A stretch of DNA of 64,000 nt from Brachionus manjavacas (Eukaryota; Rotifera; Eurotatoria; Ploima; Brachionidae). A model generated the notes under the pieces. The model did no database searches, had not been told where the DNA came from, and was given only the letters and a program-made list of their open reading frames with translations. Position 1 is the first letter of the stretch; the number at the start of each line of letters is the position of its first letter. Below are positions 44,772 to 60,700 of the stretch, piece after piece. The stretch lies in NCBI GenBank assembly GCA_019054805.1, contig JAHQIY010000007.1, forward strand, positions 4,035,501-4,099,500, written 5' to 3'. The translations under genes were made by a program, and so were the position numbers.

Positions 44772-45510
44772 AGCTGTATATCTAAAAGAGATTTTTTTTA
44801 ATAATTCTAAAAATATTCAAAACAATTTAAACTAGAATCTAAATAAAGAGTGCCAAGCTAGTAAAATGCGTAAAATTTTTTGTTGTTTAGATTTTTGGGA
44901 TTGCTCCAGAATTTTTGGTCCAAATTAATTTTTTTTTAATTTTGTCTTTAGTATCTGTAAGCAAAAATAAACTACAATTAAAACCTGTTTAATTATTTTA
45001 CAAAATATCTAAAATTTGAATTCCACTAGTTTAACTTGATTTGGTGATTTAAAGATCGTTGATTTGGAATTTAAATATTTTTCATTATCAGGTCAAAAAT
45101 GTTTGCTTAAAATTAGATAATCAAAAGGGTAAAATTAATGATGAATAACAAAGTATTATGTTTGCAGACATTCGTCTACATAAATTGCTCATATTTGAAT
45201 GAAATTAGCCTATCCTTCAAAATTTATAATTTAATTTTATCTTTAATGCTTTATTAGATATATTTATTTTAGGCCTAAAGAATCATATAAATCGCATAAT
45301 TTTGTCTCAGTTATTGATATCAACATTCAAAATTTACAAATAGTATTTAAAGAAATTTTTTTTTAGGATGCATTTTAACCCGTCATATCAATAATTGAAT
45401 TGTCATATGAAAATAAATAAAATCGTCGTATGGATAATTAAATTAAAAATTTTAATTCATAAAAAGTTTAATTATTATTTTTAATTTTAATTAATAGTTT
45501 TCAAATCTAC
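44772..45510. other. AT-rich DNA upstream of LRR gene 2
   Basis: No coding sequence seen. It should hold the LRR gene 2 promoter on the minus strand. Confidence 0.5.
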
Positions 45511-45553
45511 AACATACCCGAATCCCTGAACCAGGGCTCTGCCCCGGACCCTG
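45511..45553 (-). repeat. GC-rich motif shared with 58814-58856
   Basis: Read on the minus strand it starts cagggtccggggcagagccc and ends gattcgggtatg. The plus-strand sequence at 58814-58856 starts agggtccgtggcggaaccc and ends gattcggatatg. Similarity runs over about 43 bases in otherwise AT-rich DNA. It directly abuts the left target duplication of the foldback element. Confidence 0.55.
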
Positions 45554-45638
45554 TTAAATTTTTATTAGTGTTGGTGTCCGTGCAAGCGGACAGTAAACGG
45601 GCCAAAAATTTTAAAAACCGTGACCGTGACCGTATTAA

Positions 45639-46729
45639 CCGTTCCAATTTTGGCGGGCGGACTCTGGCCCGTTTATTTTGGCGGGCTAATTTTTGGCCCG
45701 TTTAATAAACGTTTAAAAATAAACGGGCGGTCAAGAAACCGTTCCAATTTTGGCGGGCGGACTCTGGCCCGTTTATTTTGACGGGCTAAATTTTGACCCG
45801 TTTAATAAACGTTTAAAAATAAACGGGCGGTCCAAGAAACCGTTCCAATTTTGGCGGGCGGACTCTGGCCCGTTTATTTTGGCGGGCTAAATTATGGCCC
45901 GTTTAATAACCGTTTAAAAATAAACGGGCGGTCCATGAAACCGTTCCAATTTTGGCGGACGGACTCTGGCCCGTTTATTTTGGCGGGCTAAATTTTGGCC
46001 CGTTTAATAACCGTTTAAAAATAAACGGGCGGTCCATGAAACAGTTCAATTTTGGCGGACGGACTCTGGCCCGTTTATTTTGGCGGGCTAAATTTTGGCC
46101 CGTTTAATAACCGTTTAAAAATAAACGGGCGGTCCATGAAACCGTTCCAATTTTGGCGGACGGACTCTGGCCCGTTTATTTTGGCGGGCTAAATTTTGGC
46201 CCGTTTAATAACCGTTTAAAAATAAACGGGCGGTCCATGAAACCGTTCCAATTTTGGCGGACGGACTCTGGCCCGTTTATTTTGGCGGGCTAAATTTTGG
46301 CCCGTTTAATAACCGTTTAAAAATAAACGGGCGGTCCATGAAACCGTTCCAATTTTGGCGGACGGACTCTGGCCCGTTTATTTTGGCGGGCTAAATTTTG
46401 GCCCGTTTAATAACCGTTTAAAAATAAACGGGCGGTCCATGAAACCGTTCCAATTTTGGCGGACGGACTCTGGCCCGTTTATTTTGGCGGGCTAAATTTT
46501 GGCCCGTTTAATAACCGTTTAAAAATAAACGGGCGGTCCATGAAACCGTTCCAATTTTGGCGGACGGACTCTGGCCCGTTTATTTTGGCGGGCTAAATTT
46601 TGGCCCGTTTAATAACCGTTTAAAAATAAACGGGCGGTCCATGAAACCGTTCCAATTTTGGCGGACGGACTCTGGCCCGTTTATTTTGGCGGGCTAAATT
46701 TTGGCCCGTTTAATAACCGTTTAAAAATA
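45639..46729 (+). repeat. Left array of 101-base tandem units
   Basis: About 11 units, each opening ccgttccaattttggcgg and containing ggactctggcccgttta. The first two units carry an outer variant (gggcgggcgg, ataaacgtt, aagaaacc). The third is mixed, and the later units carry ggcggacgg, ataaccgtt, catgaaacc. Unit 3 has the private variant aaattatggcc and unit 2 has tttgacggg. Confidence 0.93.
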
Positions 46730-46756
46730 TTTTTTATTTTTTAAATAAAATTTTTA

Positions 46757-46789
<33 letters not shown>

Positions 46790-46992
46790 TTATTTTTTAT
46801 TAATTTTTAAATAAAATTTTTTTTTCGTAGATTTTTTTTATTTTTTTTTCTAATTAAAAAATAACTTTTTTTTTAAAAAATAAATATATTAAGATAGCTT
46901 AATTTTTTATTTATTTCCTGTTTTTTGTCAAAATTAAGACCGCCAAGTTGACCGGCAAAATTAACGCTCGCCAAAAATCTGGCCGGTTATTT

Positions 46993-47767
46993 GACCGCCC
47001 GTTTATTTTTAAACGGTTATTAAACGGGCCAAAAATTAGCCCGCCAAAATAAACGGGCCAGAGTCCGTCCGCCAAAATTGGAACGGTTTCATGGACCGCC
47101 CGTTTATTTTTAAACGGTTATTAAACGGGCCAAAAATTAGCCCGCCAAAATAAACGGGCCAGAGTCCGTCCGCCAAAATTGGAACGGTTTCATGGACCGC
47201 CCGTTTATTTTTAAACGGTTATTAAACGGGCCAAAATTTAGCCCGCCAAAATAAACGGGCCAGAGTCCGTCCGCCAAAATTGGAACGGTTTCATGGACCG
47301 CCCGTTTATTTTTAAACGGTTATTAAACGGGCCAAAATTTAGCCCGCCAAAATAAACGGGCCAGAGTCCGTCCGCCAAAATTGGAACGGTTTCATGGACC
47401 GCCCGTTTATTTTTAAACGGTTATTAAACGGGCCATAATTTAGCCCGCCAAAATAAACGGGCCAGAGTCCGCCCGCCAAAATTGGAACGGTTTCTTGGAC
47501 CGCCCGTTTATTTTTAAACGTTTATTAAACGGGTCAAAATTTAGCCCGTCAAAATAAACGGGCCAGAGTCCGCCCGCCAAAATTGGAACGGTTTCTTGGA
47601 CCGCCCGTTTATTTTTAAACGTTTATTAAACGGGCCAAAAATTAGCCCGCCAAAATAAACGGGCCAGAGTCCGCCCGCCAAAATTGGAACGGTTTCTTGG
47701 ACCGCCCGTTTATTTTTAAACGTTTATTAAACGGGTCAAAATTTAGCCCGCCAAAATAAACGGGCCA
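46993..47767 (-). repeat. Right array of the same 101-base units, inverted
   Basis: About 8 units in opposite orientation. From the centre outwards they run: inner-type units, then a unit with ggccataattt (reverse complement of the unit-3 variant on the left), then one with cccgtcaaaa (the unit-2 variant), then one matching left unit 1, then one extra outer unit. The variant order mirrors the left arm. Confidence 0.92.
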
Positions 47768-47833
47768 ACAACCGCGATGAACCGCCCGTTTCTGGACCGG
47801 TTAGCTCTGTCCGCGTCCAACACTAATTTTTAT

Positions 47834-50203
47834 ATGACAATTTAATATTTTTCCTTTATTTTTATTTCTAGTTAGAGACTTTTTTTCTACAAATATAATA
47901 AAATTGACAAGATTTAAATTAAATGCATTTTATATAAAAATACCATTTTTAAAACTCTAAGATATTATTAGAATATAAATGAAATAACTTTTTTCTAAAA
48001 GATAAAAATTTTTTTTGAAATTGAATTGAAAAGTATTTACAAGTTCTTATTTGGGCGAAAAATTGAGGTTCCAACAGTTATAATTAATAGAAATTATTTT
48101 ATTTTATTTATTTAGTTTTGTTCTAAAATTAAAAATGTCTAATAGTTAAAAATAATTAAATTTAAAACTATTTTAATCTTATTATTTATTTATTTTAGTT
48201 ATTTTTCACTGTATCTGCAGACTGGACGGTGGTAACAAACGTGGTCTCCAATGCATATATATGGTATAAATGGCAACCATAAAGACTATATTGTAATATC
48301 AATTAATAATTTTTAAGATGATTAATATTTGACTTTTTATATCCAAATATTGGGGTCAATAAAGCTGATTGATGATTGATGAATTGAGGATCAAAATTAT
48401 TAATATACTGATAAAAAAAATAATTTATTGGACCAAAAATTAATTTATCAGTTGTTTAAGTTTTATTTAAATTTATTTTTTTTTATTTTCAAAAAACATT
48501 AAAAATAACAAAAAAAATTATAATATTCTTTTTCTAATAATAATAAATTGTACTCTAAAATTTTCTTTTTAAAAGCATTTGAAACAGTTTCATGTTATGA
48601 AAAAGATTAAAATTTAATTAAATTTAATTGAATCATTGAATTTCAAATTTTTGCTGTTTTTTTTTCAACTTTTCTAATGTAAATTTTTTGTCTATTTTTA
48701 AAATTTTAAATAATAAAATTTTTATTGCAATATTAATAAAAATTTTTATTATTGTAATTTAGACAAAAAAATACTGTAAACTGAATGAAGCGGTATCGAC
48801 CTTCAAGCAACTAAACTAGTGCCTTTTAATAGTTTAAAATCAAAAAATATTTAGGGAACAATTAAAAATCAATCTTTTGGCATTTAAAATCAGAAAAATT
48901 GATCTAATATTTAATTGTATGGTCATTTTTGAGAAGAAATGTATGATTTAAAATATGAAAATAACTGGATCTTCTCATTAAAGCTAAAATCAGAAAATTT
49001 CCTAGAATAGATGGGCTAAAAATTTTTAGATTTAAATTTAGCTAAAAATAATTTTTTTAAAACTTAATTCTATTTCTCTGTTTTTAAGCTTTATAATAAG
49101 TCATCATAACAAAAAATTGATGTTCTTAAATTTGGGAACTGAATTGGAATTGAAAATCGAGATTCAAAATCTAGATAAAATTACCAAGAATTTTTCTAAA
49201 AAGCGAATACTGTTTAAAGAATTAAAAACAAAACTAAACTGACCTCATTGAAATTTAATCAGCATGTAATTAAAATTGACCTGAATACTTTTTTGATTCT
49301 CCTGATATTTTTTCACTTAGAAAAATAAATATTTAAAACTCTAAATGTTCATTCAATTTGAGAATTATTCTTTTTTGTCAAAATTAAGCAAAAAATCATT
49401 TTGAAAAAAATTTGATCGAAAATCGCAATTTTTAGGCAATATTTTATTTTAAAAAAAAATGCATGAGCAGGATAGTTATGACTTTAAAGATTAAAAACCA
49501 CATGATTATGTTTTTGCGTTTTAAAAAATGATTAATTTTTTCAAGTATTTTTCTTTTTTTTGACCGAAACGAAATTTCGGACGAGACATATTTGAGAATA
49601 ACTATTTCATGATTGAACAAATATCAGAGGCACAAAATTGCGCTAAAGCGTTAATCATATAAACCCATTTTTTATTAAAATAAATATTTTTAGAATTCAA
49701 TAAGGTCTTTTTTAAATTTTTTTTATTAGTTTATTTGCTTGATCAAATGATGCTCAATGGAAAAATAAGCTTTAAAATTCGGGTCACTTAGCAATTCCAT
49801 TGTATTAAAAAATACTAAGCTTTACATAATTCTGATTTTCCACTTTAAGTGTTTCATTTGTTCGAGTATCGCCAAAGAAAAAAAATCTCTTGAAATTTTA
49901 AAAACTCAGAACAAAAAAGCTTAGCCCGACGACTAATAAAACTAGTCCATTATTTTATTTCTATAGAGAATAGCTGAAATAACATACAAGTAAATTTCGG
50001 TTTCTTCAATATAAAACTCGGTCTGAATTCGACTAAATTTCAGGTCAAAAATTTTTACGATTTTTTATATTATTTTAGCTCTGACTCATAAGCAAATGTT
50101 TAAATTATATTATTTTAAGATATTTTTTATCTTTTTATTTAGAAAGACTCATTACTGATAAGGATGTATCATCAGTTTTGAACATTTTGAGAAATTATGA
50201 CTT
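47834..50203. other. AT-rich intergenic DNA upstream of the tetraspanin gene
   Basis: No gene seen. A stretch at 48357-48386 (caataaagctgattgatgat and so on) looks like the 3' end and short-repeat tail of an old non-LTR element. No matching ORF is legible upstream. Confidence 0.45.
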
Positions 50204-57766: not shown

Positions 57767-60700
57767 ATGATAATGGCCGCTTCAAATCAAACATCTAGTC
57801 AAAACATGGAGAACACCATAAACGGAACTAGCAGTTCATCAGCATCACAAATCTCCAATCCTAGCATCCAAGCAGAAAACCGATGGATATTCAGCCAAGA
57901 AGACATTGAAAACTCCCCGAGCCGCAAAGATGGTCTGAGCGCCGAGCAAGAGATCGCCAAGCGCCAAGAAGCCGCTCTGTTCATTAGCGACCTGGGCGAA
58001 GAGCTCAAAGTTAACCAGCTGTGCATCAACACCGCAATTATTTACATGCATCGTTTTTTCATGATAAACTCTTTCAAAAAATTCCATCGATATGTACGTG
58101 TAAGTTTACTTTAAAAGTCAACCATTCTTTTTCTCATCTTTTTTAAATAATTTTACTTACTAAGATGGTCGCGGCCTCCTGTCTCTTTCTGGCCTGCAAA
58201 ATAGAAGAGCATCCAAGACGTCTGACCGATTTGATTAGCAGCATTCAACGCCTGTTCAGAAAGTCCAATGAATCAGTTGGCCTAACAAGAGAGGTTTGTA
58301 TTTTATTTAATTGATTTTAATAAAAAAATGGACAAACTTTTATTTTATAAATATTTTAATTTATGTTTTTATTTATTTTCACGTTAATTGAGGTTATGTC
58401 TAAAACATTCACCCGTCGAGATATTGAAAAAATAACACCGGGTGTGAATCACCAGAATTTTTTGAATAAGCCCATTTTTTTGACACATTTAAAACTTATT
58501 ATCATTCTTTATTTCTGAACAATTTAAATTTATAAAATAAATTGTACAATATTTTTCCATTTTAGTCTCTTTGAAATATACATTTTTTTTTAAATTTCAT
58601 TCTTATTTTGAAGAATAGCTACTTTTGAGGAATTTTGAAAATCGTAATAAATTGTACAAGTTAATTTGTAAATTCAAATTTAATTTTTTCACAAATAAAA
58701 ATTTATAATTATAAAAAATTTCGTGTACAGACAATGATATTTAGCTTTAAAAAACCATGCTCCTTTTTATACTTTATGATTAGCTATTTTAATCATTATA
58801 TTAAAAATAAAAGAGGGTCCGTGGCGGAACCCGCTTTAAGGATTCGGATATGCTGAAGGTAAGAGAAACATTAGTTGCTCTCAAACTAATATTTAAACTA
58901 TTGATTTATTTTGATTTTGATTTTAATTATCAAAAGTACAAAAAGAATTTTTACTTTTTATATTCACATGTGTCTAAATCTCAAAAAATCTGGACTAAAA
59001 ATTAAAAACAGATATGAATTAATTTTTAACCTTTCCCTTTATTCAATTTACATTAGAAGACCATTTTTATTTTATAAACATTTAACAAATTAAAAAAAAA
59101 AACAACATAAATTTACCTAAAAAACTAATTCAGATAAAAAAAATATAATCATATTTTCAAATATTGGTAATTTTTTTGTTGTGGAAAAAAATGGAAAAAT
59201 GCAAATAAATCGCAGAGCTTAAAAAATTGTTGTTTCGATTTTTAATTGAAAAACCATATTATTTAATTTATAATAGCTATATTTTCTAGTAGATGTTTTA
59301 TGCTCTTTTAAAAAATAAATTCAGCCTTTGAATGTATCTGAAAAAGTTTGAGAGTCTTTTTGGGTGTTTTAATTTTAAATTTAAAGGTGGTGATAATTTT
59401 TTTTTGATGAAAATGAGTACATCCAAAAATTCAGATAATTAGGAATAATTAGTAACTAAATCTTGGGATTTTATTCTATAAGATAATTTTTATGAAATTT
59501 CTTGAGTAAACCTTTAATATTCAACATTTTTACAAACTTTTTTGACAACTAACTTAAGCGATAGGGCGAAACATTCTAGATGACTTGAATTTTCTTGCTC
59601 ATTAATTTTTCCTAGTGTCTCTACTTATTCGCCGTGAATAAGAAGTGAATGACATTCACTACAATCAGAATCGGATCATAATATTATTTCTTAAGTCAAG
59701 CTAACTTTGACTTTAAAAAAAGGTAATTTAAGAAAAAAAATTTTAAGTCAAATTTGAATTTTTCTTTTCAACCTTGACTTTTGACTAACTCTGCAAAATA
59801 ATTTTTTTTTAAACTTTTAATTTTTAGCTTTTTTTTTAATTTTGCTTTTTTGCGTGTAAATAAATGAAAAATTTTCTCTATCTTAAACCAACAAATAAAT
59901 TACGTGTAAATAGACGTACCCAACAAAAAAATTGAAAAAATAAAAAATTATTTTTTTATTAATTGCAGGAGTATAAGCGCTATGAAGAGGAAATAGTGAA
60001 ACTGGAGAGCTGTGTGCTGCAGACGCTTGGTTTCGACGTGCTCATCAATCATGCGCACACGTTCATTATAAAAACTTGTCAGATGATCAAAGGTAAGTTT
60101 GGTGGTTCTTTCAATAGCATACTTTATTTTGTGACTAAAGCTCCGCGAGACCTCGCCGAAGCAGCCTACTTTACGGCCACAAACAGTCTGATATTGACAA
60201 ATTTTTGTGTGAGATTTTCATCGGAAAAAATAGCCTGCTTTTGTATATTCTTGGCATGCAAAGGAACCGATTTGATTGTAAGTCACAGAAAGCATTGGAG
60301 ATGACAAGCTAATTTTGAATTTAGATACCGACCTCTACCGAAGGCCTTCAGTGGTACCAATATGTTAAACATGACATTGTCGAACAAGAACTAGAAGGTT
60401 GTTTCATGTTTAAATTAAATTTTAGGGCGGTTAAGTTTAAGATGTAAATATAACTTAGAGAAACGAGTTTTCTAATTAAATGTTTTTATCAACATATTTA
60501 ATTTAAATTGAACTTGTAAAGATATATCGAAAGACTATTTAACTATATACCAAAAATGTTCGCCGATGGTTCAAAAGAAAATCGGCAAACCTAAGGTAAA
60601 TTGGGTTTTTTTTTCTCCTAAAAAATAATCAAAAAATTTTTTTTATTCAAAATTTTAATAGAGTGCTGAACAGCAGGCCCAAAATTCGCTCTATAAACAA

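Follow-up and report, generated by a model that had tools for sequence, protein, structure and literature searches.

A foldback-like hAT element with inverted arrays of a 101-bp unit, and its longer transposase-bearing relatives in the same genome

A 2,260-bp element bounded by a perfect 8-bp duplication

The window analyzed here, a 64-kb stretch of Brachionus manjavacas DNA, contains reading frames that, judged by eye, we take to encode a tetraspanin, a cyclin-T-like protein, and a Rieske oxygenase. It also contains a 2,260-bp element at positions 45566 to 47825. A first-pass annotation of the DNA had described a 2.26-kb GC-rich island with the ends tagtgttgg and ccaacacta and a perfect duplication of atttttat, and all of these were found at this position. 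The GC content of the element was 43%, compared to 19 to 36% in most other 1-kb bins of the window and 40 to 43% in two of them. A scan of positions 44900 to 48500 against Rfam returned nothing at the gathering threshold. The features of the element are as follows.

45558..45565, no strand: left copy of the target site duplication (TSD), ATTTTTAT, perfect over 8 bp and identical to 47826-47833
45566..45574, plus strand: left 9-bp terminal inverted repeat (TIR), TAGTGTTGG; an exact TIR of 9 bp is present in 29 of 31 elements
45566..45636, plus strand: 71-bp left subterminal stretch, not part of the array, in which AAACGG occurs once and ACCGT three times, from genome comparison of the left end
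45637..46729, plus strand: left arm, 10.8 tandem 101-bp units, from tandem-repeat finding
46730..46992, no strand: AT-rich spacer of 263 bp with 16% GC, a remnant of the right inner junction of the parent, from the match to the long copies and the common breakpoint (see below)
46993..47767, minus strand: right arm, 7.7 tandem 101-bp units, inverted, from tandem-repeat finding
47768..47825, minus strand: right subterminal stretch of 58 bp, unlike the left one beyond the TIR, from end comparison
47817..47825, minus strand: right 9-bp TIR, CCAACACTA, from end comparison
47826..47833, no strand: right copy of the TSD, identical to the left copy

Tandem Repeats Finder (TRF) gave 98% matches for the units of each array, and the right array runs in the opposite orientation to the left one. 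These values agree well with the roughly 11 and 8 facing units around an AT-rich spacer that had been counted before. In the window copy, the left arm is complementary to the right arm at 98% (759 identities over 775 columns). The exact TIR, however, is limited to 9 bp, and neither array extends to its terminus: 71 bp on the left and 58 bp on the right remain outside. Once the TIR is subtracted, these nonarray stretches measure 62 and 49 bp, respectively, and are unlike each other. The arms are inverted subterminal arrays rather than one long terminal inverted repeat. The element had been named a foldback transposon in the first-pass annotation. This name is apt in that long arms of tandem repeats, inverted relative to each other, enclose a middle part, but arms reaching the termini as long TIRs, which define a foldback in the strict sense, were not found in the window element. 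Since the termini lie 71 and 58 bp beyond the arms, we use the stricter term "foldback-like."

Dispersed copies carry individual target site duplications

The genome of 114 Mb contained 59 left ends (first 26 bases, up to 2 mismatches) and 58 right ends (last 23 bases, up to 2 mismatches), whereas the reversed patterns, used as a control with the same tolerance, had no left and no right matches genome-wide. In a whole-genome DNA search in which the best 40 candidates were scored, the 72-bp left end was 100% identical at 26 of these 40 places; counts from this search are to be read as "at least." Thirty-nine correctly oriented pairs of ends lay less than 11 kb apart, two of which belong to one rearranged palindromic locus. 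The duplication counts refer to ends with a partner within 11 kb, which 20 of the 59 left and 19 of the 58 right ends lacked, and the C2 palindrome is represented in them by the first of its two mirror pairs. Perfect 8-bp duplications were present in 36 of the 38 paired elements (30/31 in one set and 6/7 in another); the imperfect ones belong to L043 (2/8) and L075 (6/8). The exact TIR was shorter than 9 bp in L044 (8 bp) and L046 (3 bp). The target preference of hAT elements has the consensus nTnnnnAn. The copies examined here follow it, with T at position 2 of the duplicated target in 27/30 and A at position 7 in 29/30.

The flanks of 31 elements, compared with an E value cutoff of 1e-10 and the low-complexity filter on, were unrelated except for three pairs with 73 to 92% identity (C11long/L033, L027/L036, and C10b/L021); the longest similarity, between C10b and L021, covered 541 bp at 73%. 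Three such pairs are as expected if two copies landed in one older repeat, and the unrelated remaining flanks indicate that the elements are separate insertions. This bears on a possibility already raised in the first-pass annotation, namely that other copies might be missing or that the array might be an assembly artifact of a plain satellite. Tandem 101-bp units with 98% matches would fit such an origin, as would one related locus which is a large palindrome. Both the unrelated flanks and the individual perfect duplications, found in 30 of the 31 elements, argue against it. On these grounds we rejected a plain satellite or assembly artifact, to which we assign a negligible probability.

Several loci showed additional rearrangements. 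L031, one of the 31 elements, forms part of a palindrome together with L032 (G000:C2:9759200-9771900). This palindrome extends across all of the 12.7 kb retrieved and comprises two 5.6-kb blocks (99.3%); its axis falls inside a related element that possesses two right ends. In L031, the left junction and both right junctions that were read have an identical flank word. The palindrome may be a real inverted duplication or an assembly effect. At L033 (G000:C2:4035500-4038950), a second right end follows in tandem with the same flank as the first, and this locus is a local duplication that took in part of the element and its flank. The left ends L039, L040, and L041 (C30, C58, and C54) share the same 12 flanking bases and are therefore probably one insertion copied by segmental duplication. 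Finally, end matches arranged symmetrically about C6:6528131 (C6:6518176 on the minus and C6:6538089 on the plus strand; C6:6523989 on the plus and C6:6532273 on the minus strand) suggest another large palindrome with older copies of the 101-bp-unit family.

Three long copies with the same ends carry a hAT transposase gene

The first-pass annotation had placed the element in the hAT superfamily and proposed a search for an autonomous hAT with the same ends. Three long copies of 9,301 bp (C10), 9,620 bp (C9), and 10,023 bp (C11) were identified, each with a perfect duplication. They begin and end in arrays of the 101-bp unit (4.4 to 8.4 units on the left and 8.3 to 13.3 on the right), are 98.5 to 99.3% alike over 8 to 9 kb, and are identical to the window copy in their outer 134 bp. 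All three matched PF05699, the hAT dimerization domain. In C9, the frame spans 736 codons without a stop (711 amino acids from the first ATG). In C10 and C11, the PF05699 match is split over two frames, which indicates that the gene is interrupted there. A fourth relative (95 to 96%), which is broken, occupies C6:2027337-2029192 and shares its strand with a right end at C6:2023946; the left-end search of the genome revealed none near this relative.

The C9 protein matched Dimer_Tnp_hAT, a C-terminal domain, with an E value of 2.1e-13 and Hermes with 1.2e-15 (match to the PDB sequence). The catalytic core of hAT transposases is marked by DDE residues together with a CxxH motif. The C9 protein contains the motifs TTDCW (D233), TTDN (D299), CxxH (C318 and H321), RW (R428 and W429), and PSER (E676). 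In the ungapped phmmer alignment to Hermes, D233 and E676 fall on the D and E of that protein, and D299 is displaced by one residue; in two genomic relatives, D299 is matched by DN. Residues 80 to 144 gave a weak match to zf-BED (E value of 0.14; 12.6 bits, which is under the Pfam cutoff of 20.6). A structure prediction for the transposase was too poor for use (mean pLDDT of 44.9).

A foldback of the P superfamily (Galileo-like) or of Mutator that makes 8- to 9-bp duplications might also account for the architecture. Mutator is the superfamily to which the majority of described foldbacks have been assigned (PMC4079207), and Galileo is a member of the P superfamily with tandem repeats inside long TIRs (PMC4168063, PMC3688188). 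Against such an origin stand the PF05699 matches of all three long copies, the homology of the C9 protein to Hermes, and a duplication length of 8 bp in 36/38 elements. In addition, domain searches with the C9 protein (E values up to 0.01) and with its three pieces (E values up to 10) gave no P or Mutator domain; in the latter search, the program filters drop many weak matches. The transposase is of the hAT type and not a THAP/P-type enzyme, and its presence in the long copies refutes a P or Mutator origin for practical purposes; we regard this alternative as highly improbable. The element belongs to the hAT superfamily, as had been proposed, and we hold this assignment together with the derivation from a long hAT parent to be highly likely.

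The short form shares a common internal breakpoint

In the C9 parent, the right array is adjoined on its inner side by about 1 kb of AT-rich tandem repeats. Each of the three long copies contains a match to the spacer of the window copy (245 to 247 of 263 bp at 93.9 to 94.7%) in the innermost part of this AT-rich region, extending to the inner edge of the right array. The short element and the transposase-bearing parent have both their ends and internal sequence in common, as in an Ac/Ds-like pair. The breakpoint was compared in 20 of the 31 elements; the other 11 are the three long copies, L031, L037, L038, and the five shortest-armed older relatives (L042, L043, L044, L046, and C10b). Of these 20 short copies, 19 had a left array that stopped at one and the same position within the unit, and in those 19 the join of this array to the AT-rich stretch had the same or nearly the same sequence. 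This common breakpoint suggests that the short form was founded by a single internal deletion and then spread. The array-unit variants of the short copies formed a set largely distinct from that of the three long copies, and the founder therefore descended from some relative of the long copies found today, not necessarily from one of these three.

Judged from these sequence comparisons, the element is a Ds-like internal-deletion derivative of a hAT element whose subterminal regions were arrays beforehand. This shifts the emphasis of the earlier description, since the element inherited its arms from a parent with the same inverted arrays. The left half of L022 (G000:C8:3049376-3051139) contains an inverted copy of the right inner junction, and L022, which is built differently, is probably separate in origin from the other 19 short copies.

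Unit numbers vary widely between copies

Among the 19 short copies, the left arm ranged from 1.8 to 16.8 units and the right arm from 1.7 to 9.7 units. The outer 134 bp were the same as in the window copy in 18 of the 19 (window copy counted), with L034 differing by one base. Six older relatives, whose ends have diverged by 4.5 to 15%, had 0.9 to 2.5 units. Since five of these six have perfect duplications, few units suffice for movement. Unit number dropped as end divergence rose (rho, -0.76; n = 30), although the young copies share a founder and the points are not independent; L022 and L037 are young copies, yet have few units. A sister family (L049 to L055) is built of 102-bp units, observed in tandem in L049 and L050, and the matched parts of its ends are 81 to 85% identical.

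It is conceivable that the arms act by forming hairpins or cruciforms, as in a true foldback, and that this drives inverted duplication and array change, with no part played by transposase binding. The high complementarity of the arms in the window copy is compatible with this, as are the palindrome of at least 12.7 kb with its axis within a related element and the inverted right inner junction in L022. However, of the 15 copies that could be tested, only 6 had a mirrored order of unit variants superior to most shuffles (equaled by 20 or fewer of 200), and the other 9 did not; the test started from 19 copies, 4 of which had too few units. Moreover, similarity between left and right arms within an element (0.985) was hardly above that between elements (0.982), with no sign of arm-to-arm homogenization. 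Given these two results, arm-to-arm gene conversion was not upheld, and we consider a hairpin-based role of the arms unlikely.

The 101-bp unit is rich in AAACGG and CGG motifs

The 101-bp unit contains four AAACGG hexamers, compared to a mean of 0.06 in shuffled units, none of which reached four in 2,000 shuffles. CGG occurs nine times per unit (shuffle mean, 2.47; 1/1,000 shuffles). The 2,260-bp element as a whole contains 72 AAACGG hexamers versus 11 in the remaining 61,741 bp of the window, and in the C9 parent there are 12 in the left array, 1 in the interior, and 32 in the right array. Such array totals multiply a single unit, so that the independent test is the one at the unit level. 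The 102-bp sister unit has one AAACGG and 12 CGG motifs, which means that the hexamer is not a conserved core. In the aligned part of the 101- and 102-bp units, all nine CGG/CCG triplets were kept (27/27 columns versus 51/69 elsewhere; Fisher P = 0.0025). In control comparisons, CCA, CGC, CAA, and ACC triplets were fully kept too, and, of 100 circular shifts (counting shift 0), 2 kept all nine positions. Some 6-mer attained four copies in 5/2,000 shuffles of the unit, and CGTTTA likewise occurs four times in it. Because of these controls, the motif evidence for docking sites is suggestive only.

Several precedents bear on this point. The maize Ac transposase binds an AAACGG hexamer in the subterminal regions (PMC3260210), and most motifs of the hAT-derived CGGBP proteins contain CGG, the exceptions being GCGC or AT rich (PMC8097297). 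In Galileo, extra binding sites of the transposase (THAP) lie within the tandem repeats of the arms (PMC3688188). For Hermes, several BED domains contact the left end, with no BED contact described at the right end (PMC10368747); arrays at both ends are therefore not simply explained by the Hermes model. From the AAACGG and CGG content and these precedents, we infer that the arrays are candidate docking sites for the transposase, stacked one behind the other, and rate this as somewhat probable.

A likely course of events can be outlined as follows. A 9- to 10-kb hAT parent of the type found in the same genome gave rise to a nonautonomous element by one internal deletion, and the transposase of the parent would then have spread the short element. 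This enzyme, acting as an oligomer, would synapse both element ends, with its N-terminal (BED-like) domain binding CGG/AAACGG sites that recur in each 101-bp unit. The inverted arrays at the two ends would thereby serve as stacked docking sites, while unequal exchange or slippage would alter the number of units between copies. As the two ends would be mirror images for the enzyme, the inverted arrangement of the arrays follows, and no separate, hairpin-based transposition need be assumed. Taken as a whole, namely a nonautonomous hAT element that arose by a single internal deletion of the 9- to 10-kb parent type, was spread by the transposase of the parent, and has arrays as docking sites, this account seems to us likely with good confidence, a judgment that gives most weight to its directly observed parts.

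Alternatively, the arrays may be neutral baggage: a tandem pair near each end might have been lengthened by slippage or unequal exchange, with unit number irrelevant to transposition. The wide range of unit numbers among copies with near-identical ends is in keeping with this, and so are the perfect duplications in five of the six older relatives with few units. On the other hand, arrays in mirror orientation are found at both ends in the parent too, and tandem units also occur in the sister family. The enrichment of AAACGG and CGG and the retention of all nine CGG triplets in the aligned part likewise argue against neutrality. The youngest copies are also the richest in units, although owing to their common recent founder this is not independent evidence. 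We regard neutral arrays as a possibility with rather less than an even chance.

The docking-site reading can be carried one step further. Short copies with stacked recognition sites of the parent might act as a transposase trap, outcompeting the parent for its enzyme, in which case arm length would be under selection between copies. This extension is tentative, and we would sooner doubt it than accept it. Were it true, recognition of AAACGG/CGG by hAT transposases, with the same hexamer as in maize Ac, would be very old or would have arisen again in an animal hAT, and satellite-like arms would be a device that evolved independently in hAT and P (Galileo) elements.

Comparison with known repeat-armed and hAT elements

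The element is a hAT by descent, a Ds-like deletion derivative by origin, and foldback-like by shape. Maize Ds-del and Ds2, derivatives of Ac, likewise have a hAT parent, 8-bp duplications, and short TIRs, and Ac derivatives keep the ends and the subterminal AAACGG repeats and lose the gene (PMC3260210). In Ac, the hexamers lie within about 200 bp of each end, whereas here they recur in regular 101-bp arrays of up to 16.8 units per arm. Galileo of Drosophila resembles the element in its foldback-like arms, in the tandem repeats of some copies, and in having transposase-coding copies (PMC3688188, PMC4168063). It differs in superfamily and DNA-binding domain, and the arrays here lie subterminally, inside a 9-bp TIR, and make up almost all of a short element. 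Tetris of Drosophila virilis is also a nonautonomous foldback with arm units (about 220 bp) of variable number and 8- to 10-bp duplications. For Tetris, an example of a foldback known without its mobilizing enzyme, the authors detected no autonomous partner and suggest Mutator (PMC4079207), while in the present case a hAT partner resides in the genome. The transposase is homologous to that of Hermes, where multiple BED domains touch subterminal repeats; the Hermes sites are short and dispersed (PMC10368747), unlike the tandem arrays at both ends found here.

The TU foldback elements of sea urchin have arms of tandem repeats and 8-bp duplications. A sea urchin foldback is cited in PMC4079207. 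A search of titles and abstract openings in the open-licence literature revealed no hAT foldback with array arms, and we have not seen a hAT element of this shape described there together with a transposase-bearing parent that has the same arrays; publication elsewhere is possible.

A single genome here holds a transposase-bearing parent, single-founder derivatives of graded arm length, and older relatives with 0.9 to 2.5 units. A repeat-armed element that occurs together with enzyme-bearing relatives of the same ends makes the origin and movement of such elements accessible to testing. In particular, the parent and its graded derivatives allow one to ask whether tandem arms are docking arrays for the transposase and by what route a satellite-like array gets started within a transposon. 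Like the P superfamily, represented by Galileo, the hAT superfamily would be a source of elements whose repeat arms multiply the sites for the transposase.

Sequence adjoining the left duplication

Folding of the GC-rich stretch beside the left duplication was unremarkable (z score of -0.87). This stretch contains the GC-rich word GGGCTCTGCCCCGGACCC at positions 45534 to 45551 of the window, 6 bases from the duplication. A second, weak match (3 mismatches) lies on the other strand at positions 58815 to 58832, and two matches were obtained in 0/100 shuffles.
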